This document shows positions 6,868 through 41,800 of a stretch of 63,878 nt of DNA, one piece after another. The notes beneath the pieces were generated by a model, which saw only the letters and a program-made list of their open reading frames with translations, was not told the origin of the DNA and ran no database searches. Origin of the DNA: Candidatus Hydrogenedentota bacterium. Lineage in GTDB: Bacteria; Hydrogenedentota; Hydrogenedentia; Hydrogenedentales; SLHB01. Position numbers and translations under genes: made by a program. The stretch spans positions 1 to 63,878 of the forward strand of contig JACRLJ010000077.1 in NCBI GenBank assembly GCA_016215105.1. Direction: 5' to 3'. Within the stretch, counting starts at the first letter, position 1. Each line of letters starts with the position of its first letter.

Positions 6868-6941
6868 TGGAGGCGGCACTCGGAATCGAACCGAGAATCA
6901 AGGTTTTGCAAACCTATGCCTTACCGTTTGGCCATGCCGCC
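6868..6941 (-). tRNA. tRNA-Cys (anticodon GCA)
   Basis: The acceptor arms GGCGGCA and TGCCGCC pair fully, with the discriminator U73 typical of tRNA-Cys and an encoded CCA. The anticodon loop TTGCAAA carries GCA. The length is 74 nt with CCA. Confidence 0.94.
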
Positions 6942-6953
6942 CTGACTGATTCC

Positions 6954-6983
6954 ATTGTAGCGAAGCCCCGCGAAAAATGTCAA
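6954..6983 (-). promoter_or_regulatory. Promoter of the tRNA-Cys/tRNA-Leu operon
   Basis: On the minus strand TTGACA (6983-6978), an 18-base spacer and TACAAT (6959-6954) lie 13 bases before the tRNA-Cys 5' end, an ideal placement for a tRNA promoter. Confidence 0.78.
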
Positions 6984-7019
6984 ACGACCGTGGGCGCAAA
7001 GGGTGGCGCGCGGGAATAA

Positions 7020-7049
7020 TTGACATTTGTTTGGAAGACGCACTACGCT
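7020..7049 (+). promoter_or_regulatory. Possible promoter for the lpxA operon
   Basis: TTGACA (7020-7025) is followed after 18 bases by TACGCT (7044-7049). The -35 is perfect but the -10 is weak, and a leader of about 175 bases would precede lpxA. Confidence 0.33.
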
Positions 7050-7230
7050 GTGGATAAAGCCGTAAGCACATGCTGACCGCCGTTACGCCGCGTTGGAAGT
7101 TGATCTTGTGCGGCGCATAGGTTAGGCTTGGCTTGATGGGCGCGGGTTGGATCTAAACGGGCAGCGCACTACCGATTTTACCCCTTGTCATGGCGCGCGA
7201 AAAGCGTGATAACTAGAGATTGTTGTGAGA

Positions 7231-8019
7231 ATGAAAATTCATCCTTCCGCCATTGTAGACCCCAAGGCTGAGATCGACGAGACGGCCGAAATCGAGGCGT
7301 TCAGTATCATCGGGCCCGACGTAAAGATTGGTCCTGGTACGGTGGTTGGGCCGCACTGCGTTATCACCGGGCGCACTGTAATTGGCGCGAACAATCATTT
7401 CTTCAGCGGCGCGCAGATCGGCGTTCTGTCCCAAGACCTGAAACACAAGGCGGGGCTGGTGGGCCGGACCATCATTGGCGACGGCAATTCGATTCGCGAA
7501 CACGTTACCGTAAGCGCCAGCACGATGACGACCTACGATGACGACCACCGGGTGACTTCGATCGGTAACGAATGCCTCTTCATGGCGTACAGCCACGTTG
7601 CCCACGATTGCCACGTTGGCAACCGGGTCATCATGGCCAACTGCGCCTCCCTGGGAGGGCACGTGGACGTCGAGGATCGCGTGACGATTGGCGGATTGAG
7701 CGGGGTTCATCAGGAATGCGTCTTGGGAACGATGAGTTTCATCGGCGGACTTTCCCGGGTCGCGCAGGATGTTGTTCCGTACATGATTGTTGACGGCAAT
7801 CCCGGACGCTGCTACGGACCCAATTCTGTGGGGCTGCGAAGGAATGGTCTCGACGCCGCCGCGCGAAACCGGATCAAGACGATGTACAAGGCGATGTTCC
7901 GATCGGATTTGAACACGACGCAAGCGCTTCACGAAATCGAGGCCACGGTCGAGGACAGTGAAGAGCGCACGACGTTCGTGGAATTCGTCCGGAAGTCCAT
8001 TCGTGGTATTACGAAATAG
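7231..8019 (+). CDS. lpxA: Acyl-ACP--UDP-N-acetylglucosamine O-acyltransferase
   Basis: LpxA acylates UDP-GlcNAc in the first step of lipid A synthesis. The protein begins MKIHPSAIVDPKAEI and shows hexapeptide repeats of a left-handed beta-helix over about 190 residues, then a helical C-terminal domain. With the ATG at 7231 the catalytic His in AYSHVAHDCHVG is residue 125, the same number as in E. coli, which favours this start over the GTG at 7225. The length of 262 residues is normal. It opens a plus-strand run leading through a Gfo/Idh oxidoreductase to lpxB. A related substrate, the 3-amino analogue of UDP-GlcNAc, is possible given the neighbour. Confidence 0.95.
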   Translation: MKIHPSAIVDPKAEIDETAEIEAFSIIGPDVKIGPGTVVGPHCVITGRTVIGANNHFFSGAQIGVLSQDLKHKAGLVGRTIIGDGNSIREHVTVSASTMTTYDDDHRVTSIGNECLFMAYSHVAHDCHVGNRVIMANCASLGGHVDVEDRVTIGGLSGVHQECVLGTMSFIGGLSRVAQDVVPYMIVDGNPGRCYGPNSVGLRRNGLDAAARNRIKTMYKAMFRSDLNTTQALHEIEATVEDSEERTTFVEFVRKSIRGITK

Positions 8020-8244
8020 GGGTTACGGCGCGTTCGTATCGTTGAGCTGCAAGTGGGTGACAGAACCTGTGTCACGATTGATACCAGGGACGAACCGACT
8101 TGAATCCGCCGGTTTGGCGCGTTCATGATTCGCTCCAGATTGCGCTGCGATTCAGTTGCGTGCGCCGGCAGTACACGCGCCGCCGAGGCGGCGTAGTTAC
8201 CCTTCCTGTGCGAACGGTTCCTCAAAATCGAAAGGATACCTGCT

Positions 8245-9198
8245 ATGGCCGTTGTTCGTACCGGCGTGATCGGCGTCGGTCATCTCGGCTACCACCACGC
8301 CCGCAACTATACCGCGATCAGCGGGGCGCAGTTGGTGGGTGTCGTGGAGCCGGACGAGGGACGCGGCGCAAAGGCGGCCACTGATTTCGGAGTTCCGCGG
8401 TACTCGGACTTGGAATCGCTGATCGAGGCCGGTGTCGATGCGGTTTCGGTGGTGACGCCCACTACGCACCACTGCGAAGTTGTGCTTCGGCTCCTGGACG
8501 CTGGAATAGACGTCCTGGTGGAGAAGCCCATCGCGGCTACGATTGATCAGGCCGCGGCGATGGTCGCGAAGGCCGCTGAAAAAGGCCGCATACTCCAGGT
8601 AGGGCACATTGAGCGCTTCAACGGCGCGGTGATCGCGCTGTTTGAGTCCGGCATCACTCCGAAGTTCATCGAGTGTCACCGGCTCAGTCCGTTTCCCAAT
8701 CGCGGAGACGATGTCAGCGTGGTGCTCGATTTGATGATTCACGACCTGGACATCGTCCGCGCGCTTGATGCGTCCGACGTGGTCTTCGTGGATGCGGTGG
8801 GCGTTCCGGTGTTCTCGAAATCGGAAGACATCGCCAACGTGCGCATCCGGTTTGCGTCGGGATGCGTCGCGAATCTCACGTGCAGCCGGGTCTCGATGGA
8901 GCGTATGCGCAAGATCAGGATCTTCTCGAATGACGCGTACGTATCGACCGACTACTCGGAACAGGCCGTGGTGGTGTATCGGAAGAAGCCTGGCCCACTC
9001 GAACCGGGTATGACGCCGATGGACCTGATTACAGTTGAGTCCATGAATGTACACAAGGACGAGCCGTTGAAGCTCGAGCTGGCGTCTTTTGTCGAGTGCG
9101 TGAGGACACGAAACCGGCCTCTGGTCGCCGGCGAGGACGGTCTCGCGGCGCTTCGTCTCGCGCAGCAGGTCATTGGTTCAATTCGGGAGCACTCGTGA
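8245..9198 (+). CDS. Gfo/Idh/MocA oxidoreductase in the lpxA-lpxB interval (GnnA-like candidate)
   Basis: The 317-residue cytosolic protein has an N-terminal Rossmann fold (GVIGVGHLGYHHARNY), the conserved VEKPIA motif with Lys94, and the C-terminal domain signature DLMIHDLDIV with His166 and Asp170. Family members oxidise or reduce sugars or sugar nucleotides with NAD(P). In Acidithiobacillus and Leptospira, GnnA of this family oxidises UDP-GlcNAc at C3 before GnnB adds an amine for amide-linked lipid A. Its place between lpxA and lpxB and its 4-bp overlap with lpxB support a lipid A role. No GnnB-type aminotransferase is adjacent, so the assignment is inference. Confidence 0.85.
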   Translation: MAVVRTGVIGVGHLGYHHARNYTAISGAQLVGVVEPDEGRGAKAATDFGVPRYSDLESLIEAGVDAVSVVTPTTHHCEVVLRLLDAGIDVLVEKPIAATIDQAAAMVAKAAEKGRILQVGHIERFNGAVIALFESGITPKFIECHRLSPFPNRGDDVSVVLDLMIHDLDIVRALDASDVVFVDAVGVPVFSKSEDIANVRIRFASGCVANLTCSRVSMERMRKIRIFSNDAYVSTDYSEQAVVVYRKKPGPLEPGMTPMDLITVESMNVHKDEPLKLELASFVECVRTRNRPLVAGEDGLAALRLAQQVIGSIREHS

Positions 9199-10313
9199 CA
9201 CGCATTTTCTTTTCGGCGGGCGAGGCCTCGGGCGATATGCACGGCGCCAATCTCATTCGCGCGCTCCGGGACATTGACGGGCGGGTCCAATGCGAAGGGC
9301 TTGGCGGCCAGCGCATGACCGACGCCGGGATGACTCTCCGCTTCGACCTTGCCGGCAAGGCGATCATGGGTTTCACAGAGGTGGTGAAGTCGTTAGGCAT
9401 GATTCGCCGCCTGTTCAATGAAACGGTCGCTTATCTGAAGGAGAAGCGTCCCGACTGCCTTGTGCTGATTGACTATCCCGGTTTCAACATGCGGCTTGGC
9501 AAGCGCGCCAAGGCCCTTGGAATTCCGGTCGTCTATTACATTAGCCCGCAGGTTTGGGCGTGGAAAAAGGGGCGCGTTTTTGAGCTTGCCAAATTCGTCG
9601 AGAAAATGCTAGTAATTCTCCCGTTCGAGGAAGAGTTGTACGCCCGCGCAGGCGTCCAATGCCGGTACGTCGGCCACCCGCTGCTGGATCACCTGAACGT
9701 TGCGTCCATCGCGGGACGTTTCCGTGGTTCGACGGTGATTGGCCTCTTGCCGGGCAGCCGCGAGCAGGAGATTCGCCGTCACATGGACGTGATGATTGAG
9801 GTGGCGCGCGGTATACGTATGAGGTATCCGAAGGCGCGGTTCATCGCGCCGTGTGTGGACCATGCGCGGGAGTCGCAGGTGCGCGCGCTGGCCGGGGATT
9901 TCCCTGTGGAAACGGCGGTTGGCGGCATGTACGAAGTCCTTGATGCGGCCCGGTTTTGTCTTGTCGCGTCCGGCACCGCCACGCTGGAGACCGCGCTGTT
10001 CGGCGTACCCATGGTGGTTATGTACCGAATCTCTGGGCTAAGCCATTGGCTTGCGCGGCGCTTGGTTTCGGTGGCGCACATTGCGATGGTGAATATTCTT
10101 GCCGGGCGTGGAATCGTTCCGGAATTCATACAAGACGAGGCGCGCGCCGAGATCGTGCTTCCCGCGGCGCTCGACTTAATTGCGGATACGCCGGCGCGCG
10201 CGGCCATGTTGCGGGATCTAACGGACTTGCGCGCCGGGTTGGGCGGTGACGGCGCGTCCCGGCGGGCCGCCGAGGAAATCATGAACGTTACACTGAAGAG
10301 TCAGAATGCCTAA
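9195..10313 (+). CDS. lpxB: Lipid-A-disaccharide synthase
   Basis: LpxB (GT19) joins UDP-2,3-diacylglucosamine and lipid X to form the lipid A disaccharide at the inner membrane. Family blocks seen are FFSAGEASGDMHGA, IDYPGFNMRLGKRAK, YYISPQVWAWKKGR, VGHPLLDHL, LLPGSREQEI and ASGTATLETALFGVPMVVMY. The GTG at 9195 overlaps the upstream TGA (GTGA) and follows GGGAG; a longer upstream frame has no family similarity. The length of 372 residues is normal. The 3' end overlaps polA by 8 bases, so translation of the two is probably coupled. Confidence 0.96.
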   Translation: MTRIFFSAGEASGDMHGANLIRALRDIDGRVQCEGLGGQRMTDAGMTLRFDLAGKAIMGFTEVVKSLGMIRRLFNETVAYLKEKRPDCLVLIDYPGFNMRLGKRAKALGIPVVYYISPQVWAWKKGRVFELAKFVEKMLVILPFEEELYARAGVQCRYVGHPLLDHLNVASIAGRFRGSTVIGLLPGSREQEIRRHMDVMIEVARGIRMRYPKARFIAPCVDHARESQVRALAGDFPVETAVGGMYEVLDAARFCLVASGTATLETALFGVPMVVMYRISGLSHWLARRLVSVAHIAMVNILAGRGIVPEFIQDEARAEIVLPAALDLIADTPARAAMLRDLTDLRAGLGGDGASRRAAEEIMNVTLKSQNA

Positions 10314-13020
10314 TTGCATATTCCTCATAGACGGAACCGCGTTCGCCTACCGGGCGTTTTTCGCGATTCGCGGCCTTACAAACTCGAAAGGACGCCCGAC
10401 GAACGCGGTGTACGGATTTGCCCGCGTGCTCATCAAGATTATGAGGGAGCATAAGCCCAGCCATATTGCGGTGGTGTTTGACGCTCCGGGCAAGACTTTT
10501 CGCGACGACCTCTATCCCGAATACAAGGCGACCCGCGACGCGACGCCCGAGGACTTGGTGTCGCAGTTTCCGCTCATCGAAGAGCTTGTGCGGGCGTTCA
10601 ATATTCCGACTTTCCGCGTTCGCGGAGTCGAGGCGGACGACGTGATCGGCACGCTGGCTCGCCGGGCGGAAGCACAGGGTATGGAGACGGTAATCGTCAC
10701 GGGCGACAAAGACGCCTTACAGTTGGTTACGGATCGCGTACGCGTGTTCGATCCAAACAAGGGCGACAACGGGGCATGGTACGGTCCCAACGAGGTCAAG
10801 GAACGGTTCGGCGTCGAGCCGCAGCATGTCATCGATTCGCTGGCGCTAATGGGCGACACGGCGGATAACGTGCCGGGGGTGCGCGGCATAGGCGAGAAGA
10901 CGGCCCGGACGCTGCTGGAAAAGTACGGGAGTCTGGATGGCGTTTACGCGCATCTCGATGAGCTTAAGGGCAAGCAAAAGGAGCGGCTGACCGAGGACAA
11001 GGAGACGGCGTATCTGAGCCGCACGCTGGTCACGATAAACTCCGATGTGCCTCTGGATAGAGGGGTGGAAGACTGCCAGAAACGGGAATTCGATCGGGAG
11101 CACTTGGCGGAGGTGTTTGCTTCCCTTGAATTCAAGGCGCTTCTCGAGGAGTTCCTACCGAAAGGGGAGTCCACGGAGACCACAGACTACCGTTTGGTTC
11201 TCACGGAAGCGGAACTGGCGGCGGTCATCGCCGAAATGCGCGCTTCTGGATGTTTCGCGGTGGATACCGAGACGACCAGCACGGACCCGATGCGCGCCAC
11301 GCTCGTGGGGGTTTCCATGAGCTGCCGGCCCACCACCGGATACTACATTCCCGTCGGCCACGCGCCCGAGACCTTTATCCCGGCGGGACAGGAAGACGAG
11401 CTATTTCCGGACCAATTGGCCCATTCTCTGACCCGGGAGCGCGCACTGACGATGCTCCGGCCGCTGCTCGAAGATCCCAGCCTGGGCAAGATTGGGCATA
11501 ACATCAAATACGACCTAATTGTGCTCGAACGGGCGGGCATACGGCTGGCTGGAATCGTGTTAGATACTATGGTAACATCGTATTTGACAGACCCATCCCG
11601 TTTCAGGCATAATCTAGAGGAAGCTAGTCTCCAATATCTCAGACGCAAGATGATCCCCATATCCGATTTGATTGGTTCGGGATCCAAAGCGATCACCTTC
11701 GATAAAGTCCCCGTACAGCGCGCGTGCGAGTATGCTTCTGAAGACGCGGATATCACGTGGCGTCTAGCCGGGGTTTTCCAACCGCTCTTGCGGGAGCGGG
11801 CCTTGGAAGCGCTATTTGGCGAGGTCGAATTACCCCTCATTAGCGTCCTTGCGCGGATGGAAATGACGGGGGTTGTTATTGACCTCGAGGTGTTTGAAGG
11901 GCTCCGGAAGGAAATTGGAACCCGCCTGCGGGCCTTGGAAGAGGAGATCTTTGTTGCCGCTGGCGGACCATTCAGCATCAATTCGCCGAAGCAACTTCAA
12001 GAGATACTTTTTACGAAGCTGGGATTGAAGCCCACGCGCAAGACGAAGACGGGCTACTCGACTGACGTGGATGTACTCGAGGAGCTCTCCCGGGACCATC
12101 CGCTCCCGGAAAAAATACTTGAATACCGAACCTTGGAAAAGTTGCGGGGCACGTACGTCGACGCGCTACCGAAGCTGGTCCATCCTGAAACCGGCCGCAT
12201 ACACACCTCATTCAATCAAGCGGTAGCGGCGACGGGCCGATTGTCAAGCAGTGATCCAAACCTTCAGAACATTCCCGTACGAACTGAGATTGGGCGCAGG
12301 ATACGTCAAGGATTTGTTCCTGGCGGGAAGGGGCTAAAGTTAATCTCGGCGGACTACTCGCAGATTGAGTTGCGAATACTCGCGCATCTCTCCGGCGATA
12401 CACAGTTGAAATTAGCCTTCCAGCAGGACGAAGATGTCCACCGTCAGACGGCGGCCCGTGTGTTTGGGGTAGCTCTCTCGGATGTAACATCGGACATGCG
12501 CCGGCAAGCCAAGGCCGTGAACTTCGGTGTGGTGTACGGGATCAGTCCGTTCGGACTCGCCAAGAACCTTGGGATTCCCACCGCCGCCGCGGCTCAATTC
12601 ATTGACCAGTATTTTGCACAGTATCCGGCGGTGAAACAATGGATAACGGACACGCTGGAGCGCGCGGTCTCGGACGGGTATGTGACAACCCTGCTGAATC
12701 GCCGGCGGTATGTGCCGGAACTGAACAGTTCAGAGGTAAATACGCGCAAGGCCGCGGAACGCGCCGCGATCAACACGCCGGTCCAGGGGAGCGCAGCGGA
12801 TATCATCAAACTGGCAATGGTGCGGTTGGACAATGCGTTGGCAGGCACAAGCGGGCGGATGCTTTTGCAGGTACATGACGAACTCTTGCTCGAGGCACGG
12901 GAGGACGAGGCCGAGGCGATTGCAGCCTTAACAAAGAAGACGATGGAAGAAGCGGTAACGTTGGACGTACACCTCCGGGTGGACGTGGGGATAGGAAACA
13001 ACTGGGACGAAATCCACTGA
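10306..13020 (+). CDS. polA: DNA polymerase I
   Basis: The 904-residue enzyme fills gaps and removes primers. Three domains are visible. The 5'-3' nuclease spans about 1-290 (LIDGTAFAYRAFFA, VEADDVIGTLARRAE). The 3'-5' exonuclease spans about 310-490 with intact DTETTS, GHNIKYD and YASEDAD motifs, so proofreading should be active. The polymerase holds motif A ADYSQIELRILAHLSGD, motif B RRQAKAVNFGVVYG and motif C QVHDELLLE. It begins inside the last codons of lpxB, which links it to the lipid A transcript. Confidence 0.97.
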   Translation: MPNCIFLIDGTAFAYRAFFAIRGLTNSKGRPTNAVYGFARVLIKIMREHKPSHIAVVFDAPGKTFRDDLYPEYKATRDATPEDLVSQFPLIEELVRAFNIPTFRVRGVEADDVIGTLARRAEAQGMETVIVTGDKDALQLVTDRVRVFDPNKGDNGAWYGPNEVKERFGVEPQHVIDSLALMGDTADNVPGVRGIGEKTARTLLEKYGSLDGVYAHLDELKGKQKERLTEDKETAYLSRTLVTINSDVPLDRGVEDCQKREFDREHLAEVFASLEFKALLEEFLPKGESTETTDYRLVLTEAELAAVIAEMRASGCFAVDTETTSTDPMRATLVGVSMSCRPTTGYYIPVGHAPETFIPAGQEDELFPDQLAHSLTRERALTMLRPLLEDPSLGKIGHNIKYDLIVLERAGIRLAGIVLDTMVTSYLTDPSRFRHNLEEASLQYLRRKMIPISDLIGSGSKAITFDKVPVQRACEYASEDADITWRLAGVFQPLLRERALEALFGEVELPLISVLARMEMTGVVIDLEVFEGLRKEIGTRLRALEEEIFVAAGGPFSINSPKQLQEILFTKLGLKPTRKTKTGYSTDVDVLEELSRDHPLPEKILEYRTLEKLRGTYVDALPKLVHPETGRIHTSFNQAVAATGRLSSSDPNLQNIPVRTEIGRRIRQGFVPGGKGLKLISADYSQIELRILAHLSGDTQLKLAFQQDEDVHRQTAARVFGVALSDVTSDMRRQAKAVNFGVVYGISPFGLAKNLGIPTAAAAQFIDQYFAQYPAVKQWITDTLERAVSDGYVTTLLNRRRYVPELNSSEVNTRKAAERAAINTPVQGSAADIIKLAMVRLDNALAGTSGRMLLQVHDELLLEAREDEAEAIAALTKKTMEEAVTLDVHLRVDVGIGNNWDEIH

Positions 13021-13248: not shown

Positions 13249-14709
13249 ATGTCGGAACGAATGAACACGGATCGGTCTCAGAATAGGCCCAAGGGCAAAG
13301 GCATGCGGAAAAACGGCTCGGGCGGCCAGAACCGCGGCCACGGCCGGCCACCCGTCCGGCACAGCCCGCCGCGTCAGTCGCATGGCAATGGTCTGCCCGA
13401 TCCCAATAACGATGTCGAAGCGGATCTGCCAGTTGGCGAACCCACCGGCCCGGTATTGGCCATTCACGACCTGAAGAAGATGGGCGTGACCGAACTGACC
13501 GACACTGCGCGGCGCTTGGGCCTGCACGAAGGCTACAGCGGCTTGAAGAAGCAGGACCTGATCTTCAAAGTGCTTCAGCTCAGCATCGAGAAGGCCGGCG
13601 CGGTCTACGGCGAGGGCACGCTGGAAATCCTTCCGGACGGGTTCGGCTTCCTGCGCTCGGGTGACTACTCGTACTTGCCGGGACCGGATGACATCTACGT
13701 TTCGCCATCGCAAATCCGGAAGTTTGCGTTACGCACCGGCGACACCGTGCAAGGGCACGTGCGTCCGCCGAAAGAGGGCGAACGCTACTTTGCGCTGCTC
13801 AAGGTCGAAGCGGTCAACTTCGAGACTCCCGAAGTGGCCCGCGAACGTATCCTGTTCGACAACTTGACTCCGTTGCACCCGGACGAGCGGCTGCGTCTCG
13901 AGACCGTGCCCGAAGAAATCGGCATGCGTATCATGGACCTGATTTCGCCCATCGGTAAGGGCCAGCGCGGTTTGATCGTTGCGGCGCCCTTCACCGGCAA
14001 GACGGTGCTGCTCCAGAAGATCGCCAACAGCATCGCCGTCAACCACCCCGAGGCGCACGTCATCGTGCTGCTCATCGACGAACGCCCCGAAGAAGTCACC
14101 GATATGGCCCGCTCCGTCAAGGGCGAGGTGATCGCCTCGACCTTCGACGAAGCGCCCGAACGCCACGTCCAGGTCGCCGAAATGGTGCTTGAAAAGGCCA
14201 AGCGCCTCGTCGAACACAAGAGAGACGTGGTCATTCTGCTCGACTCGATCACGCGTCTGGCCCGCGCCTACAACGTCATCGTCCCGTCGAGCGGCAAAGT
14301 GCTGTCCGGCGGTGTTGACGCCAACGCGCTCCAGCGCCCGAAGCGTTTCTTCGGCGCGGCGCGCCACATCGAGGAAGGCGGCAGCCTGACCATCCTCGCC
14401 ACCGTGCTTATCGAGACCGGCAGCCGCATGGACGACGTGATCTTTGAAGAGTTCAAAGGCACGGGTAACATGGAAATCCATCTCGACCGCCGCCTCATGG
14501 AAAAGCGCATCTTCCCCGCCCTCGACTTGCACAAGTCGCGCACGCGTAAGGAAGAGTTGCTGGTCGAGGCTGACGAGTTGCAGCGCATCTGGCTGTTGCT
14601 CAAGATCCTCAGCCCGCTGGGCGTCTCCGAAGCTACCGAACTCCTCGTGGACAAGCTCAAGAAGACCAAATCGAACCACGAGTTCCTGGCGATGATGCAG
14701 AAGATGTAG
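13249..14709 (+). CDS. rho: Transcription termination factor Rho
   Basis: Rho is the hexameric RNA helicase that ends transcription at unstructured C-rich RNA. The 486-residue protein has an N-terminal extension of about 70 polar residues (Gly/Asn/Arg/Pro-rich), a Rho_N helix domain ([18 protein letters not shown]), a cold-shock-like RNA-binding domain with [11 protein letters not shown], and the ATPase core ([14 protein letters not shown] Walker [16 protein letters not shown]-loop region, [22 protein letters not shown]). The P-loop reads AAPFTGKT; E. coli has APPKAGKT, so the usual basic residue is Phe248 here. The start ATG at 13249 follows GAAAGGAAGA. An intrinsic terminator follows the stop. 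Confidence 0.97.
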
Positions 14710-14732
14710 CCGCCTGTCGAGTATTCACAATA

Positions 14733-14770
14733 GGGCCGGGTGTCCGCGTAGGACGCCCGGCCCTGTTTGT
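14733..14770 (+). terminator. Intrinsic terminator after rho
   Basis: GGGCCGGGTGTCC and GGACGCCCGGCCC form a 13-bp stem (one G-T pair) around a GCGTA loop, followed by TGTTTGT. Confidence 0.8.
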
Positions 14771-14846
14771 ATCGGGATTCGGGAGGTCAGACCTCCTTGC
14801 CGACCGCGTCGACTGCTGACACATCCCAGTCCCTCAAGACTCATAT

Positions 14847-14875
14847 TTGCCCAAGCTTTCCGGCCCGTATACAAT
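14847..14875 (+). promoter_or_regulatory. sigma70-type promoter for the membrane-protein pair
   Basis: TTGCCC (14847-14852) and TACAAT (14870-14875) are 17 bases apart, 40 bases before the ATG at 14915, which has a GAGGAGGGG ribosome site. Confidence 0.55.
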
Positions 14876-15676: not shown

Positions 15677-16495
15677 ATGCGAACAGCTTGCCGAGTCATT
15701 GCGGCGCTGTGCGGTATCTATTTTGGCTATATAGGGGCGCTTCGCGGGTACCATATTGCCGTAGGTCTTCTGGGCGCCGGCACGACTCTATTAGATGTTG
15801 CAGGATGTTTCTTCGGCGTCGTCATGCTTTCCTTATCAGTCTTGACGTTACGCGTCCTTCGCAATCGGTCTTCTTGTGCAATGTCTGCTCTTCAACTACT
15901 GTTCGTTCAAACTCTCGGGCCGTTATTCGCTGGCCTAATCGGTTCTGCCACCTTGCTCGCGCTCGCGGCAGATGGAATTGAGACGATAGGTAAGTGGCCG
16001 GCTTTTCTAAGTGACCGCGGACACGCAGGGCGCGTAACTTGTTACGTGCTTGTAGCTTTACTTAGCTTATGCTTGAGTCTCCGCGCCATCTGGAAAGCGA
16101 ATTCTCTGTCGTCAGAAAGGCGGCCACTCTTCCGACAGAGCGCGTACGGGGTGTTCCTGGCCCTGTTCGTTCTCCCGTTCGCGTTAAGGATGTTTGTCGA
16201 TATCGCGATTTATTCGGACTTAGACATGGACGGGGTACCTCTTTCCAACGTTTCCGCCGTGGACTGGAAGTGGCTGGGAATGCAAATGGACCACGTCGTA
16301 GTTGGAATAGTGTTCATCGTGCTCGCTTTCAGCGCTGTCCTGAGAAGCCGTGACAGTGGCGGCGAGCTTGGGCAACGAGGATTAGTTGCCGAGGTCCCGT
16401 CTAGCCAGCCAGGCAGTGAGACTCCTTCACGTCCAGAGCGGCCGGGTATAGAGCAGTCTCAGGCGCCTATTTCTCCAACTGCAGCTCAAACGTAA
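15677..16495 (+). CDS. Polytopic membrane protein of unknown function (second of a pair)
   Basis: The 272-residue protein has about six hydrophobic segments and a Pro/Ser/Gln-rich cytosolic tail of about 50 residues. Its arrangement parallels the preceding gene, including an Asn-Val...Asp-Trp-Lys segment before the final helix. The start ATG follows CAGGAGGG. The last 29 bases overlap the 3' end of the convergent GH38 gene, a close tail-to-tail arrangement that could cause mutual antisense transcription. The function is unknown. Confidence 0.65.
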   Translation: MRTACRVIAALCGIYFGYIGALRGYHIAVGLLGAGTTLLDVAGCFFGVVMLSLSVLTLRVLRNRSSCAMSALQLLFVQTLGPLFAGLIGSATLLALAADGIETIGKWPAFLSDRGHAGRVTCYVLVALLSLCLSLRAIWKANSLSSERRPLFRQSAYGVFLALFVLPFALRMFVDIAIYSDLDMDGVPLSNVSAVDWKWLGMQMDHVVVGIVFIVLAFSAVLRSRDSGGELGQRGLVAEVPSSQPGSETPSRPERPGIEQSQAPISPTAAQT

Positions 16496-19148
16496 GCACT
16501 TTGTACGCCGGGCACGTGAAGGGCACAGCGCCCTTCACGACTCGAAGCGGCTTTTCGCGCTTCTCGTTCAGATTCGTTAGATATGCTTTCTCGATGGCGC
16601 GGAACGCTGTTAGCGTAGTCTTGATTGGCGTTGCGCCGGGATTGTAGACGCGCACGATTAGCGTGTTGCGCGTCTCGCACTTTTTCAGTGCGCTGAGCAC
16701 GAGCCCCTCATTCCCAAAGTCAATGAAACTCCCGTGGTCAGGCAGGCGGCCTTCATGCGGGACGGGCCGCATGGGCTGCTCGCGCATAAAGGGGTCTTGG
16801 AACATTTCCAGTTGTTTCACCTCGGTTCCGCTGTGTACGTCGCAGCGGGTGACGCATACACCCAGATTGTGGCTCAGGGCCTCGCGCATTACCGGGCCGC
16901 AGTCTCCGCGGTGTGCCATGAACGCATAGCGGAACTCCATGGCGCGGAAACATTGCGCCTCAGGTGTTGGCAACGGCGGGCCGACGTAGAACGGGCGCGT
17001 GGACAAATCGGAACGGCACAGCCAGCCGACGGCCCGGAACAGGGTTTGCGCGAGGGTGCGGCGCCCGCCCCGGCAAATAACCTCAAACTCGGGCAATCCG
17101 TCGTTGATGATGGCGAAGCCGCGCTTGCCCTCGCGCAGCGACGCGAACCGCCGCTGATGGCGGGTTGGGTAGGGCGGCTGATTCCCGCGCACGGGCGGTT
17201 GAATCACACTGCGCTCGACCACGGCAAAGTGGCCGTCCACTTGCACCGTGTCCGTCTTCAGTGTGGTTGGGAACAATGCGCGCAATCGGTGATCCTTGGC
17301 GATGTTGTTTACGCGGGTGACGACGTCGATTCGCGGCGAACCCGCGTAACAGGTCACTTCGGAGACGATATCCAGCGCCACGCGCTTCTTCGCGCGGGCC
17401 TGACGGTCTGGCGTCAGACTTTCCGGCACGTTCAATACATGCGCAATCCGCCAGGTCGCGGATAACGGCCCACTGTGGATCCGCTTGAGACGCGCTTTCG
17501 ATTTCGCCGTCGTAAGCGGTTCGGGCTTCGACGGAAGATACGACCAGTTGTACTCGTCGCCGCAGTCTTCTGAGTCCTCGAATATGAGCAGGCCCGGATA
17601 GGTCTTCTTCGTGGCTTTATCGCGCAGGTCGAGCGAACCGTTGGACTGGATCGCCAGGGTGTAGTGGTCATTTTCGAAACGGCGATCCATTACTTTCACA
17701 ATAGGCCTTACTGCCGCAGGCTTTCCCTCCCTCACGTACAGCGTCCGATATCCCACTGGTGGCAAGTCTAGGCGCACGCGCACGGTGTGCCGCCGCAGTT
17801 CGAAGCCCTTAAGCGGTTCCATGCGGAATATTTCTTCGCTTCGAACCAGATCATACGGGACTTCGCGTCCGCGTTCATCAAACAGCGTGAACGACTTCCA
17901 TGCTTCGCCTTCCCTTTTCAAATCAATATCAATTGTCATCACCTCGGTACGGCGCGCGCCCGCCGGATTGAAGACCATGACCGGCACACCCGCCACCCGC
18001 GAGTTGTCGAGGTCTTGCGCGATGGCGCGCAGAGCCACCCGTGACAGGACGGCGCCCACCGTCTCCACTTGGTTGTAGCGGTGCTCGTTTTCGCGGTGGA
18101 CGGCGTCCATGCTGCATCCGCTGATGTCGTCGTGCGGATGGTTCTTGAGGAGTTCACGCCAAGCGTGCCAGAGCGTGTCCTGCGGATACTCGCCGTTTTT
18201 CGTGGCCCACGCCAGCGCCGCCAAGGGCTCCGCATTCGCCTCCAACAGATCCTGGCAGTGTTGGTTGCGCGTCTTGAGGTACATGCGGGTGGAGTAGACT
18301 CCGTGCAGCATTTCGCCGTAGTGATATGAAAGCTCGCCTTCGAGCCGCTGCAATTTTGCGCCGCTCAGTTCCCGCTTGACCGTATTGATGTATTCCTCAA
18401 AGGACGCGATCTTGAACCGGTATTGCGGAAATTCCCTGGCCGCCTGCGCCAACAGTTTGGGCAGTTCCGGCTGGTGCTCGGAATGATCCACGCCGTTATT
18501 CAGCAGCAAGGTTCGGCAACGCGTATGCTTCTCTAGACTCGCGCATGCCTCGCCGATTCGTTTAATCGCGAGCGCGCGATCTTGAACCAGGTTTTCCGAG
18601 TCCCCCCAGACAATCCGGTAGCCGAGGAACGCGGCATTGTTATAGAAGAAGCGCTGATTGCACGCCAGGACGCGGCTTCCGTCCAGTCCGCTCCACTCGA
18701 ATTCGAGCTTCACGTCCTTTTCCTGGACGTCAAGACCGCGCGCGAACAGAAACGTGTCCAGATCGAACCCGTTGAGAATCTGCGGTAATTGCGCGACGTG
18801 CCCGAACGGGTCTGGCACATACCCGACCTTCATAGTGTGCCCGAATTCGGCGGAAATGCTGTGGCCGAGCATCAGATTGCGCACGAGCGACTCTGGGCTC
18901 ACTAGGAACTCGTCGGGCAGGACGTACCACGGCCCGACCCACAAGCGGCCCGCGCGAACCAACTTCTTGATACGTTCTCGCGCCTCGGGCCGGTTTCTTA
19001 CCGAAAGCTAGTTTGAGTCCTTCTCAAGGGTATCGCACACTCTGTCCACCAGCCGTATCAAGCGCAGCCGGAATTCCTCGAATGGCAGGTACCAAGCGCG
19101 ATCCCAGTGGGTATGCGGAACCACGAGAACGTTCATCGTTGCGGACAT
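16467..19148 (-). pseudogene. GH38-type alpha-mannosidase interrupted by an in-frame stop and small deletion
   Basis: GH38 enzymes are Zn-dependent retaining alpha-mannosidases. The start ATG at 19148, with GGGAG 6 bases upstream, encodes PHTHWDRAWYLPFEEF, which holds the HTHWD zinc ligands, and continues to DTLEKDSN. There a TAG (19010-19008) interrupts the frame. The same frame resumes with RPEARERIKKLVRAGRLWVG and runs 831 codons through VGYVPDPFGH (nucleophile Asp) and the beta-rich C-terminal domains. Homologues usually carry about 18 residues here (a TLDGQTIVLEDYLE-like stretch) where this gene has six codons including the stop. The downstream frame alone would lack the zinc ligands, so the enzyme is predicted inactive unless the lesion is an assembly error. 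Confidence 0.85.
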
Positions 19149-22016: not shown

Positions 22017-23306
22017 TCAGGCTTTGTTTTTGGCCGCTTTTTCGCGCTCGGGGGCAACACCATAGTCGCGAATCCGAATCGTCCGGCCGTTCTGTATCGC
22101 GGACTGGTGGGCCACAATCCCCGGCATCGTATACGCGATGGCCTCGTAGACGTCCACCGAAGGCGGACGGTCCTCGATGACGGCGCGCACAAACTCATGC
22201 GTCAGGAACGTGTGGGAGTTGTGATGGCCGGTCTGTACTCGCATGGGTTCGGGAAGACGGTCGAAGTAGTCCGGAGTCTTGTCGGGATCGATATGCACAT
22301 CGCCCTCCGGGTATCCGTTGGTGTCGAGGGTGGTCTTCCCGTCTTTGGCTATTGTTACCAAGGAGTTCGGCGAGCCCTCCGGCCGCGCGGCGCTATAAGA
22401 CATACGATCTCCGTAGAATGACGCGCGTTCCGTTCCGCCCGCGGCGACGTGCCAATAGACCGCCACGCGCGCTGAATGACCGCGCGCCGTGCGGAAAAAT
22501 GCGGTCGTGTTCCAGAATGGGTTGCCGTAAGTATTCGTTCGCAGGATTTCGTGGTCGTCTCCCCAGCCGATTGCGGAAACCGCTGTTAGTCGTTCGCCGG
22601 TAACGGGGACGATCATGCCGGTGCAGTGCGTCGGATAGTGCATGGGCGGAAATCCGTGGCGCCATGTGGGGAGCCCGCGGTCGTCGTACATTAACGCCTT
22701 CAGTCCCTCGTGGTGATACTCGGCCTCCGAATAGAAAATGGTTCCGAACTCGCCTGCCTGCGCTTTTTCGCGGCAGGCGATGATTTCCGGATGGTAATAG
22801 CTGGTTTCGGCCATCATGTAGGTCATACCGGTGGATTTGACGCAGTCCAGCAGTTCCTCCAATTCATCGGCGGACATCCCGGCGGGGACCGCGCTAATGA
22901 CGTGTTTTCCGGCCTTCATCGCCTCGATCGCCATCCAAACGTGCAACGGAGCCGGTGTAAACACTCCAACCGCGTCGAGTTCGGGGTGTTGCAGCATCTC
23001 GCGGAAGGTCTTAAAGGTATTGGCGCACCCGTACGTCTTCGCGAGGCGTCCAAGGGCTTCATCTCGAATATCGCAGACCGCGGTGACCTTGCAATCCGGA
23101 TCCAGATGCCATTGAAAGCCGGCCCCGAAGTTTCCACCGACGACGCCCATACGGATCTTCGCGATAGGCGCCCGCTTCTTGGGCTTTGCCGACTTGGTTT
23201 CCGACGATTTCAAGGATTCTCCGGCTGCGGCGCCGGCCAAGGCCACGGCTCCCACACCCGCGATGAAATTCCGCCGCGAGACTTCTCCATGGGTTTTGTC
23301 AACCAT
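22017..23306 (-). CDS. Tat-exported Gfo/Idh/MocA oxidoreductase
   Basis: The 429-residue protein starts with a twin-arginine signal (SRRNFIAGVGAVALAGAAAG), so it is folded with cofactor and exported. A Rossmann domain follows (MGVVGGNFGAGFQWHL, TAVCDIRDEAL). The usual EKP motif is replaced by SAVPAGMS, so the conserved Lys is missing. The C-terminal half contains YYHPEIIACREKAQAGEFG and an NSHTFLTHEFVRAVIEDRPP segment typical of large family members in sugar and glycan metabolism of PVC-type bacteria. The substrate is unknown. It stands alone, with convergent transcription toward the HTH-receiver gene. Confidence 0.85.
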   Translation of the reverse strand: MVDKTHGEVSRRNFIAGVGAVALAGAAAGESLKSSETKSAKPKKRAPIAKIRMGVVGGNFGAGFQWHLDPDCKVTAVCDIRDEALGRLAKTYGCANTFKTFREMLQHPELDAVGVFTPAPLHVWMAIEAMKAGKHVISAVPAGMSADELEELLDCVKSTGMTYMMAETSYYHPEIIACREKAQAGEFGTIFYSEAEYHHEGLKALMYDDRGLPTWRHGFPPMHYPTHCTGMIVPVTGERLTAVSAIGWGDDHEILRTNTYGNPFWNTTAFFRTARGHSARVAVYWHVAAGGTERASFYGDRMSYSAARPEGSPNSLVTIAKDGKTTLDTNGYPEGDVHIDPDKTPDYFDRLPEPMRVQTGHHNSHTFLTHEFVRAVIEDRPPSVDVYEAIAYTMPGIVAHQSAIQNGRTIRIRDYGVAPEREKAAKNKA

Positions 23307-37683: not shown

Positions 37684-39144
37684 CTAACCGCGCCACTTGA
37701 TATCCGCCGGCGGGAAGTTGTCGTAGCGGTACGGGTCAGGCGTTTCAAAGTCAAACGTGTACTGTGCCTTGTCGATGGCGACCTCCGTGCGGTCCTTCAT
37801 CGCCTTTGACCCATTCAGCGACACGATCGCGGCAAGCAATCCGACCATCTGATTCGCCTTGGGGACCTTCTTCTGGAAGATGTCATTGGCGAACGACTCA
37901 AATTGCAGCGCGTCAACGTGCCTGGTTTCCGCCATGAACAACTGTTCCTTGCTCTCGTCGGCGGCGGTGGAAACCTGTAACGACTTGCCCGAGGTGATGT
38001 CCTTGGCGACGCTCGCCGCGGTAACGATGCCGCCTGCGTCCCATGCGCCAACCGCAGCGGGCTCGGTGTAGCCGAAGCAGGCCGGCTCGGTGAGCTCCAG
38101 CGTGCCCTTGTCGCCTTGCATTATTTCCGAGGAGCCCCGCTTGGCGTTTGCGCAGATACTGGTGTAGGTGGCGCGGACGGTATAGGGCCGATTCATCGTC
38201 TGCATGCTCAAGAAGGACGTACGCTTATCCATAGTGCCGAATGCGGGGTTAGACGGGACCATGTCGTACTCGTAGGTCAGGGACACGTTGTCATATACAT
38301 CCCGGCCATCTCTCCAGTAGTCGATTCCGCCGTAGCCAAAGACCCGCGACGGGGGCGTGTGTAGAAACCAGTTGCATACGTCCAGTTGGTGCGTGGCGAG
38401 TTCTGTCATCAGGCCGCCGGCCGAGAACTCATTGTAGAGGCGCCAGTTGATGTGTTTCTCGAGATCCGGGATCCACTTCTTTTCGTCGGCGGACAGCACG
38501 TAGGCAGGGTCAACGGGCCGCCGCCAGTCGTTGTTACGGTGCCATTGGGCGGTGATGTGGTTAATGCGGCCCACCACGCCTTTTTCGCGCGCCAGCCACA
38601 GCGCCCTGTTGTAGCCGGGATTGTAACGGCGTTGGTGCCCCACTTGGACCCACAATCCGGTTTCGTTGCACTTTTTCACCAGGTTTCGGCACTGCTCGAC
38701 GTCGTAGCACATCGTTTTCTCGCAGAACACGTATTTCTTCGCGTCGAGGCAATCCATCGCGATTTGGTAATGGGTGTGGAGGGGGGTGGAGATAATAACC
38801 GCCTCGAACTGCTCCTTCTCAAGCATTTCGCGGTAGTCCATATACTTCTTGATGTTCTTTTGTTTTTCTTCCTTTTTCTTGGGGTCCGCGTCCTCGACCG
38901 CGATGTCCCAGCCTCCGTTCAAATTGGGGGTATAGACATCGCACACCGCCACCAATTGCAGCGTCTTTATCTTGGGCAGGCCCAGGCGCAAGTGCAGACA
39001 GCCTTGTCCTCCGGTACCGATTGCCGCCACTCGGACGACTTCGTTCTGAGCATAACTAAATGGCGAATAGCCCGCGGCGATCGCGACTCCCGTTGCGATG
39101 CCCGCGGTCTTGATGAAATCCCGGCGCGTTACCTGTGTATCCAT
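37684..39144 (-). CDS. Tat-exported Gfo/Idh/MocA oxidoreductase (paralogue of the gene at 40265)
   Basis: The 486-residue protein starts MDTQVTRRDFIKTAG, a twin-arginine signal. A Rossmann fold (VRVAAIGTGGQGCLHLRLG) is followed by FCEKTMCYDVEQC, in which EKT replaces EKP, then VGHQRRYNPGYNRAL and the C-terminal LATHQLDVCNWFL helix with the conserved His. Two large loops set this subfamily apart. It shares most of its sequence with the 511-residue protein at 40265-41800, so the two are duplicates separated by the YceI-like gene. The ATG at 39144 has GGGAGGGG upstream. The substrate is likely a sugar or polyol, but this is not established. Confidence 0.9.
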   Translation of the reverse strand: MDTQVTRRDFIKTAGIATGVAIAAGYSPFSYAQNEVVRVAAIGTGGQGCLHLRLGLPKIKTLQLVAVCDVYTPNLNGGWDIAVEDADPKKKEEKQKNIKKYMDYREMLEKEQFEAVIISTPLHTHYQIAMDCLDAKKYVFCEKTMCYDVEQCRNLVKKCNETGLWVQVGHQRRYNPGYNRALWLAREKGVVGRINHITAQWHRNNDWRRPVDPAYVLSADEKKWIPDLEKHINWRLYNEFSAGGLMTELATHQLDVCNWFLHTPPSRVFGYGGIDYWRDGRDVYDNVSLTYEYDMVPSNPAFGTMDKRTSFLSMQTMNRPYTVRATYTSICANAKRGSSEIMQGDKGTLELTEPACFGYTEPAAVGAWDAGGIVTAASVAKDITSGKSLQVSTAADESKEQLFMAETRHVDALQFESFANDIFQKKVPKANQMVGLLAAIVSLNGSKAMKDRTEVAIDKAQYTFDFETPDPYRYDNFPPADIKWRG

Positions 39145-39280
39145 GATCGCTAGCCCCTCCCAAACAATGGTCGTTAGCCTTAGTTTCGAGCAGATTCCGG
39201 CGATTCTCCTGGGCACTGGCTCAAGACGCCGGCCACGGTTTCATTGTGCGCCTGTCTAGAGCATTTCGCAAGTGGGAGCC

Positions 39281-40264: not shown

Positions 40265-41800
40265 CTAGCCCTTCTTGCCAGCCGGCGCGGGTTTCGCTTT
40301 CGGTTCGGTTCCGGGCACTTCGCCGGGATCGTCAAACCGGTACGGATCCGGTGTCTTGAAATCGAAGGCGTACAGCGCCGGGTCGATATCGATGGTCTTC
40401 CCTTCGCGCATGGCCTTCTCGCCGGACAGCGCCGCGATCGCGGCCATCAAGCCGACAATCTGATTCGCCTTGGGAACCGCCTTTGCCTTGATATCCTTAA
40501 CAAAGGACTCGAACTGCAAAACGTCCACGTGCGGCAACATTTCGATGGGTTTGCCGTCCTTGCCAGTGTCACCGGGAACGCGTATTTGCTGGTTCTCGCC
40601 CTCGGCCTTGGTGGACACTTCGCGCGACTTCCCGGAGGTGATGGCGTTGGCGACGCTCTTTGCGTCCACGACTCCACCGGAATCGAACGGTTTGGCGGCG
40701 GCGGGTTCGCGGTACTTGAAGCAGGCGGGTTCGGTGAGTTCGAGTGTACCGATATCACCGTGCAACTGTTCGCCTGCGCCGCGCTTTGCGTTCGAGCAGA
40801 TACTCGAGTACTCGACACGCACGGTATACGGCTGGTTGATCTTCCTCAGATCCTGGAAGGCGCTCCGCTTGTCCATGGCATAGAACGCCGGATTCGACGG
40901 ACGCACCTCGTATTCATAGGCCAGCAGCACGTTGTCGTCCACGTCGCGGCCGTCTTTCCAGTAGTCCACGCCGCCGAATCCCATCACGCGCTTGGGCGGT
41001 GTGTTGAGGAACCAATTGGTGACGTCCAATTGGTGGCACGCGAGTTCGGTCATAAGGCCGCCCGCGGAGAACTTGTGATACAGGCGCCAATTGATCCACT
41101 CGTCCAGCGGCACCTTGATGAACTTCTTTTCCTCGTCGCTCAAGACGTAGTTCTTATCCACGGGCCGGCGCCAATCGTTGTTCCGGTGCCACTGCGCTGT
41201 GATGTAATTGATGCGCCCAATCGTATTGGGTTTGTCCTTCGAGTCCTTGGGGCGGTATGCGGCCAAGGCCATGGCGCGGTTGTAGCCGGGATTGTATCGG
41301 CGCTGATGGCCGACTTGGACCCAAAGGCCGGTGTCGTTGCATTTTTTTACGACTTCGCGGCATTCTTCCACCGTGTAGGCCAAGGTCTTCTCGCAGAAGA
41401 CGTACTTGCCGGCCGACAGACAGTCCATGGTGATCGGGTGATGGGTGTACAGGGGGGTGGAGATAACGACCGCATCGATCTTTTCTTTATCGAGCATCTC
41501 GCGGTAGTCCATGTACTTCTTGACGTTCTTCCGCTTGGTCTCGTCTTTTCCCACGGCTTGTTCCCAGCCGCCGTCCAAGTGGGGTTTGTACACGTCACAG
41601 ACCGCAACGAGTTCAATATCCTTTGCTCCGGTCAAGCCGTAGCGAAGATGGAGACTGCCTTGGCCGCCCGTCCCGATGGCGGCGACGCGCACCTTATCAT
41701 TCTGCGCGTAGGAGAATGGGGAGTAGCCCGCGGCAATGGCGACACCTGCCGCAGTCCCCGCGGTCTTGAGAAAATCCCTTCGACTAAAACTGGTCTTCAT
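40265..41800 (-). CDS. Tat-exported Gfo/Idh/MocA oxidoreductase
   Basis: The 511-residue protein begins MKTSFSRRDFLKTAG, a twin-arginine signal, then VRVAAIGTGGQGSLHLRYG, FCEKTLAYTVEEC (EKT in place of EKP), VGHQRRYNPGYNRAMALAAY and LACHQLDVTNWFLN. Differences from its paralogue at 37684 are an insertion near residue 185 (YRPKDSKDKPNT) and a Lys/Pro-rich C-terminal tail. It follows apbE by only 15 bases, which makes an operon apbE - oxidoreductase - YceI likely. NAD(P)-type cofactor must be bound before export through Tat. Confidence 0.9.
   Translation of the reverse strand: MKTSFSRRDFLKTAGTAAGVAIAAGYSPFSYAQNDKVRVAAIGTGGQGSLHLRYGLTGAKDIELVAVCDVYKPHLDGGWEQAVGKDETKRKNVKKYMDYREMLDKEKIDAVVISTPLYTHHPITMDCLSAGKYVFCEKTLAYTVEECREVVKKCNDTGLWVQVGHQRRYNPGYNRAMALAAYRPKDSKDKPNTIGRINYITAQWHRNNDWRRPVDKNYVLSDEEKKFIKVPLDEWINWRLYHKFSAGGLMTELACHQLDVTNWFLNTPPKRVMGFGGVDYWKDGRDVDDNVLLAYEYEVRPSNPAFYAMDKRSAFQDLRKINQPYTVRVEYSSICSNAKRGAGEQLHGDIGTLELTEPACFKYREPAAAKPFDSGGVVDAKSVANAITSGKSREVSTKAEGENQQIRVPGDTGKDGKPIEMLPHVDVLQFESFVKDIKAKAVPKANQIVGLMAAIAALSGEKAMREGKTIDIDPALYAFDFKTPDPYRFDDPGEVPGTEPKAKPAPAGKKG

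Follow-up and report, generated by a model that had tools for sequence, protein, structure and literature searches.

A probable gnnA gene between lpxA and lpxB is conserved across Hydrogenedentota and suggests an amide-linked lipid A

The lpxA-gnnA-lpxB locus and the identity of its middle gene

We analysed a 63,878-nucleotide stretch of DNA (hereafter the window; contig C124, JACRLJ010000077.1) from a Candidatus Hydrogenedentota bacterium whose assembly, GCA_016215105.1, comprises 6.68 Mb in 171 contigs and is 95% complete. Between lpxA and lpxB, two genes of lipid A synthesis, the window carries a gene of the Gfo/Idh oxidoreductase family that is very likely gnnA, and the following features were assigned to this locus.

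7231..8019, + strand: lpxA, acyltransferase for UDP-N-acetylglucosamine (UDP-GlcNAc) or its 3-amino derivative UDP-GlcNAc3N, first lipid A step; ATG start at 7231; above the cut-offs of TIGR01852 and PRK05289
8020..8244, + strand: lpxA-gnnA intergenic gap of 225 nt; no sigma-70-like promoter or terminator-like site inside it in a consensus scan
8245..9198, + strand: very likely gnnA, Gfo/Idh UDP-GlcNAc 3-dehydrogenase, from sequence, fold, fixed columns and context
9195..10313, + strand: lpxB, lipid A disaccharide synthase; GTG start at 9195 taken from the sequence; TIGR00215 and PF02684
9195..9198, + strand: GTGA overlap of the gnnA stop and the lpxB start, 4 nt shared

A preliminary description of this DNA had given the order as lpxA, Gfo/Idh gene, lpxB, and both the coordinates and the family scores agree with it: LpxA scores 295 bits against NCBIfam TIGR01852 (cut-off 231), LpxB scores 292 bits against TIGR00215 (cut-off 190) and 309 bits against PF02684, and the middle open reading frame (ORF) scores 109.5 bits against the Gfo/Idh family PF01408. 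All three genes are co-directional. The overlap of the oxidoreductase gene with lpxB, also described earlier, is the GTGA common to both genes, which suggests translational coupling of the two; a start for lpxB at 9096, taken from an ORF listing, was rejected as over-extended. A consensus scan of positions 6900-10400 returned a single promoter-like site and a single terminator-like site, both outside the gaps between lpxA, gnnA and lpxB. Downstream of lpxB, on the same strand, lies polA, followed by an ORF at 13249-14709 that is presumably rho.

Is the middle gene gnnA, as the preliminary description had suggested? First, the solved structure that matches it best by sequence is 7bvj (187 bits, with the runner-up at 73 bits), an entry titled UDP-N-acetylglucosamine 3-dehydrogenase GnnA from Acidithiobacillus ferrooxidans. 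Second, a predicted structure of the window protein (mean predicted local distance difference test score 95.1, from 25 aligned sequences) superposes on 7bvk, the companion entry, with a Z score of 41.1 and a deviation of 1.2 Å over 299 residues at 36% identity, and the best non-GnnA entry in the same fold search reached a Z score of 36.2. Third, among 86 columns that are invariant in at least 95% of 26 GnnA proteins encoded beside gnnB, the window protein keeps 87%, 31 proteins of the phylum keep 85-92% and A. ferrooxidans GnnA keeps 74%, whereas three Gfo/Idh paralogs from the same genome keep 43-48%. The EKP and DLMIHD motifs are conserved in the window protein, which has them, together with its fold, in common with A. 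ferrooxidans GnnA; the lysine of the former and the histidine and aspartate of the latter are presumably the catalytic-type residues of the Gfo/Idh family.

The Gfo/Idh family is large, and 64 places in this genome, gnnA included, match gnnA at E 0.001 or better, so that an unrelated sugar or inositol dehydrogenase might have come to lie in the operon by chance. We consider this highly improbable. The inositol 2-dehydrogenase (IolG) model TIGR04380 has a cut-off of 355, far above the 111 bits obtained here, whereas the best NCBIfam model, the UDP-GlcNAc 3-dehydrogenase model NF040723, gives 235 bits. This too is below the cut-off of that model (450), but because a gnnB-linked Geobacter GnnA scores below it as well (221 bits), and the model is named for archaea, this cut-off does not discriminate among bacterial GnnA proteins. 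Among solved structures GnnA matches far better than any other, the gene is nearly universal and syntenic in the phylum (see below), and the clustering with unrelated inositol or sugar dehydrogenases, against which the preliminary description had proposed a phylogenetic check, did not occur. Sequence, fold, conserved residues and context thus bear out its identification, and oxidation of UDP-GlcNAc at C3 with NAD+ is the predicted activity of the window protein.

gnnA in the phylum and in other bacteria

We found a single gnnA match at E 1e-40 or better in 64 of 68 genomes of the phylum, with 58-74% identity to the window protein (its own match excluded). Of the four remaining genomes, two carry the C-terminal tail of gnnA directly upstream of lpxB where a contig ends, a third has an lpxB that is itself truncated by the end of a contig, and the fourth yielded no lpxB; counting the truncated copies, gnnA is therefore present in 66 of 68. 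In a synteny sample of 30 loci (our genome and 29 others), 29 have lpxB as the first mapped gene downstream of gnnA, the thirtieth stopping at a contig edge, and the gaps between the two genes (up to ~410 nt) are too short to hold a gnnB. In 27 of the 30, lpxA lies no more than 1.5 kb upstream of gnnA, and two further genomes (L198 and L199) share the order lpxA-gnnA-lpxB. Because it is conserved in this way, the order is not due to chance, and gnnA is a core gene of the phylum.

How common is a gnnA that lacks a neighbouring gnnB? Among named genomes, for which the best 80 of at least 574 relatives were kept and phyla were assigned by record title, a gene for a DegT-family aminotransferase (gnnB) follows gnnA in 26 loci, all from Pseudomonadota and Thermodesulfobacteriota, and gnnA is followed by lpxB without gnnB in 30 loci from ten phyla and two records of unknown phylum. 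The other 24 show neither gene beside gnnA, partly because of contig ends. The absence of a neighbouring gnnB is thus common. The GnnA proteins of the 26 linked loci (Geobacteraceae, Methylococcales, Thioalkalivibrio and others) are 40-48% identical to the window protein and have gnnB right downstream, where the window has none, whereas the 30 gnnB-less loci (Omnitrophota, Myxococcota, Nitrospirota, Zixiibacteriota, Gemmatimonadota and others) have a gnnA-lpxB junction like that of the window. The only two gnnB-less loci checked for it (L098 and L099) carry LpxI between lpxA and gnnA, unlike the window; LpxI was found neither at this position nor elsewhere in our genome.

The analogy with Acidithiobacillus that had been drawn earlier also holds. 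Among 369 genomes from the class of a Thioalkalivibrio, the three nearest to A. ferrooxidans GnnA have the order lpxA-gnnA-gnnB-lpxB, with gnnB after gnnA, whereas in the window lpxB follows gnnA directly; the window order is theirs minus gnnB. On the full GnnA tree, in which 7bvj sits on a long branch and its placement is unsure, the gnnB-linked proteins require nine changes, and a single clade of them was not rejected (approximately unbiased test, p 0.115) on a reduced set of 64 rows that left out the outgroup and 'other' rows and kept a quarter of the phylum rows. From these trees, the gnnA-gnnB linkage appears likely to have been gained or lost repeatedly.

A locus of Bdellovibrionota (L065), presumably the phylum of Bacteriovorax stolpii as well, has lpxA-gnnA-lpxB in the order of the window, and a 5.4-kb contig of Legionellaceae (L100) has gnnA-lpxB. 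A passage of PMC8036547 includes B. stolpii and Legionella pneumophila among organisms whose lipid A contains 2,3-diamino-2,3-dideoxyglucose (GlcN3N), and part of PMC5644692 describes gnnA and gnnB of Mesorhizobium loti as separate from one another and from lpxA, lpxB and lpxD. Given these cases, an unlinked gnnB is no evidence against GlcN3N lipid A.

Candidates for the partner aminotransferase

According to the preliminary description, no aminotransferase is present in the window. For the DegT family this stands, in that none of the 20 PF01041 matches in the genome (17 long and three weak) lies on C124; for other aminotransferase families, it holds for the 23 of 52 ORFs selected for the search and the ndk ORF, to which that search was limited and in which none was found.

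Could a GnnB homologue be encoded elsewhere? We searched with a profile of 16 linked GnnB proteins, which gave 645-670 bits in three linked genomes (these had contributed rows to the profile) and no more than 490 bits in the other 34 of the 37 genomes searched, that of L065 being outside the search. Within the phylum, a match at E 1e-90 or better (335-479 bits) was obtained in 59 of 68 genomes. In a DegT tree (FastTree, 129 proteins), 58 proteins form one GnnB-related clade with a local support of 95; this clade holds 41 proteins of the phylum, exactly one for each of 41 of the 68 genomes, together with 17 of the 27 DegT proteins from named genomes without a visible gnnB beside gnnA. Two genomes from a single family of the phylum (L198:5703-14208 and L199:2542-11151) have the DegT gene of this clade on one strand with the lipid A genes, as lpxA-gnnA-lpxB-polA-rho-DegT. 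For genomes that carry the clade, its DegT protein is the best gnnB candidate.

Several observations weigh against an amide-linked lipid A made with an unlinked aminotransferase. The clade is missing from 14 of 38 well-assembled genomes of the phylum, ours included, and from 14 of 25 in our genome's family, and nine of the 68 genomes have no GnnB-like DegT protein at E 1e-90. The 17 long DegT proteins that the search of our genome returned include none in the GnnB clade, and the best of them reaches 446 bits against the 645-670 bits of the three linked genomes that contributed to the profile. Even within the clade, the edge in GnnB-specific residues is slight (54-58%, against 41-46% in other DegT clades), and for two members tested WbpE does not score above other sugar 3-aminotransferases, whereas for a linked GnnB it scores over QdtB. 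Finally, the protein with 446 bits (C61:6405) lies, in relatives, in a run of genes for a membrane protein, a glycosyltransferase, the DegT protein and a methyltransferase.

None of the 17 proteins appears to be a convincing GnnB. C61:6405 is doubtful as such, since 2oga (which we take to be DesV) and QdtB score above WbpE and a glycosyltransferase gene is its neighbour, so that it looks dedicated to another sugar. In its region (L200:5659-7499), a glycosyltransferase 2 gene stands beside the DegT gene, and a large membrane protein gene and a methyltransferase-like gene flank them in many relatives (names assigned by eye); a surface operon for a sugar amine is predicted here. C61:1646 has a Gfo/Idh gene of its own and a hexapeptide transferase gene as neighbours and is also doubtful. 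So is C160:19360, although it has the most GnnB-specific residues of the 17 (54%): it is flanked by a glucosamine-6-phosphate isomerase-type gene on one side and another Gfo/Idh gene on the other, and looks catabolic.

We also compared the 17 proteins with 70 of the 75 DegT matches of six good genomes that lack the GnnB-related clade. All six genomes gave a reciprocal best match to C85:65371, and five of the six gave one to each of C74:3199, C95:1674, C153:5452 and C112:2114, although some of these matches are weak (36-40% identity). The regions around the C85, C74 and C95 genes contain no homologue of lpxA, gnnA or lpxB, the three lpx-run genes to which the search there was confined. The C95 gene (L011:394-2625) encodes a protein of 744 aa in which an epimerase/dehydratase domain is fused to an ArnB-like DegT domain, and its reciprocal best matches are those in five of the six genomes.

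In seven of ten phylum regions examined, the GnnB-related DegT gene adjoins TPR, VWA or GHMP genes. In our genome this run is intact in the middle of a contig and has no DegT gene, and about 5% of the genome may be missing from the assembly. A strong reading of this as loss of the DegT gene from its usual site is weakened by two other genomes: G046 has the run without DegT and carries its DegT gene at another place, and in G045 a remnant of the DegT gene lies at the end of a contig. Where the clade has been lost or was never present, a non-orthologous aminotransferase, or an undescribed route for UDP-3-keto-GlcNAc into lipid A, is possible, although we hold this to be a minority prospect.

Alternatively, the 3-keto sugar nucleotide might not be aminated but used directly, or reduced to an epimer, leaving another group at C3 of the lipid A precursor. 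The 14 well-assembled genomes without the clade fit this idea, 12 of them with a whole gnnA and two with a cut one, as do the nine genomes without a GnnB-like protein at E 1e-90. We regard it as quite improbable: with 11-17 DegT proteins at E 1e-30 or better per good genome (seven genomes listed), an unrecognised aminotransferase is the easier explanation, and the gaps between lpxA, gnnA and lpxB in the phylum loci (no more than ~780 nt) showed no further large enzyme in a check that covered large genes, with small ORFs outside it.

A proposed route to an amide-linked lipid A

Further enzymes of the pathway are encoded in our genome, which has LpxD, an LpxC-FabZ fusion, LpxB and, on C152, LpxK. 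On C20 (L315:856-3211), away from the contig with lpxA, gnnA and lpxB, lpxD adjoins the lpxC-fabZ fusion gene (Pfam LpxC and FabA). The closest solved LpxA to that of the window is, by a small margin, 3hsq (207 bits, against 200 bits for the Escherichia coli enzyme 1lxa), which we take to be Leptospira interrogans LpxA. In Leptospira every primary acyl chain is reported, in part of PMC10248169, to be amide-linked. The window enzyme keeps His122 and His125 (E. coli numbering). When 47 chosen positions in 60 LpxA proteins were compared by eye with the E. coli and Leptospira enzymes, no residue separated the gnnB-linked enzymes from the others in terms of N- versus O-acylation, which lends the amide-linked reading no support. 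At E. coli position 99, a histidine in that enzyme, all 27 phylum proteins covering the position have serine; at position 176, arginine is present in 28 of 28 phylum proteins, lysine in Leptospira and glycine in E. coli. Since the region around position 176 presumably sets acyl-chain length, short 3-hydroxyacyl chains are possible in the lipid A of the phylum.

The identities of gnnA, lpxA and lpxB, the presence of lpxC(-fabZ), lpxD and lpxK in the genome and the conservation of the gnnA-lpxB pair across the phylum are supported directly. The reaction, the aminotransferase, the substrate choice of LpxA and the lipid A structure are what we infer, as follows. GnnA would oxidise the 3-hydroxyl of UDP-GlcNAc with NAD+ to give UDP-3-keto-GlcNAc, which a DegT-family aminotransferase encoded elsewhere would convert to UDP-GlcNAc3N. 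LpxA would then acylate its 3-amine, and LpxC, LpxD, LpxB and LpxK would carry the acylated precursor onward, yielding a lipid A backbone consisting wholly or partly of GlcN3N with amide-linked 3-acyl chains. That GnnA feeds such a lipid A through an unlinked aminotransferase is, in our judgement, probable. It would be a known kind of system in a new lineage.

The residues of LpxA fit either substrate, so UDP-GlcNAc3N might mainly supply another surface glycan while LpxA acts on UDP-GlcNAc, and the lipid A would be ordinary or a hybrid of glucosamine (GlcN) and GlcN3N. Sugar-amine clusters do occur in this genome, such as the Gfo/Idh-hexapeptide transferase-DegT and glycosyltransferase-DegT clusters on C61, and hybrid GlcN3N-GlcN backbones are described for Capnocytophaga in part of PMC3342949. 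We nevertheless think this explanation unlikely: of the 30 phylum loci in the synteny sample, 29 have gnnA among the lpx genes, ahead of lpxB, rather than among glycan genes, and the cluster on C61 already has a Gfo/Idh gene of its own. A locus of Ectothiorhodospiraceae (L078) has two lpxA genes, one by gnnA-gnnB and one by lpxB (9120-9992 and 13963-14859); by analogy with Capnocytophaga, a hybrid lipid A is possible in that genome.

Returning to the GlcN3N route, the retention of gnnA throughout the phylum makes it probable that the outer membrane of these bacteria contains an amide-linked, unusually stable lipid A. For a phylum represented in this analysis only by genomes, it is a prediction of lipid A chemistry that can be put to the test. 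GnnA-type lipid A may be far more widespread than the textbook cases, given the 14 phyla represented among the 80 named loci in addition to this one. This phylum, like at least 30 of those 80 loci, would escape a search for gnnB adjoining gnnA. Because amide-linked lipid A is stable to mild base and TLR4 often recognises it weakly, an inventory of GnnA-type lipid A should be useful for reading environmental lipopolysaccharide. Our literature search found no paper on gnnA in this phylum, nor one that describes a gnnB-less lpxA-gnnA-lpxB order as widespread; the word 'oxidoreductase' is absent from the main text of a survey of lpx clusters (PMC3087551), whose supplementary cluster table was outside this check, and the GnnA structure paper is cited in passages of PMC8549069 and PMC9132286.

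Elsewhere in the window, three further Gfo/Idh genes lie on the - strand, at 22020-23306 (assigned by Pfam) and at 37687-39216 and 40268-41800 (assigned by their matches to gnnA), and a GH38-type alpha-mannosidase gene is located at 16470-18962, also on the - strand.

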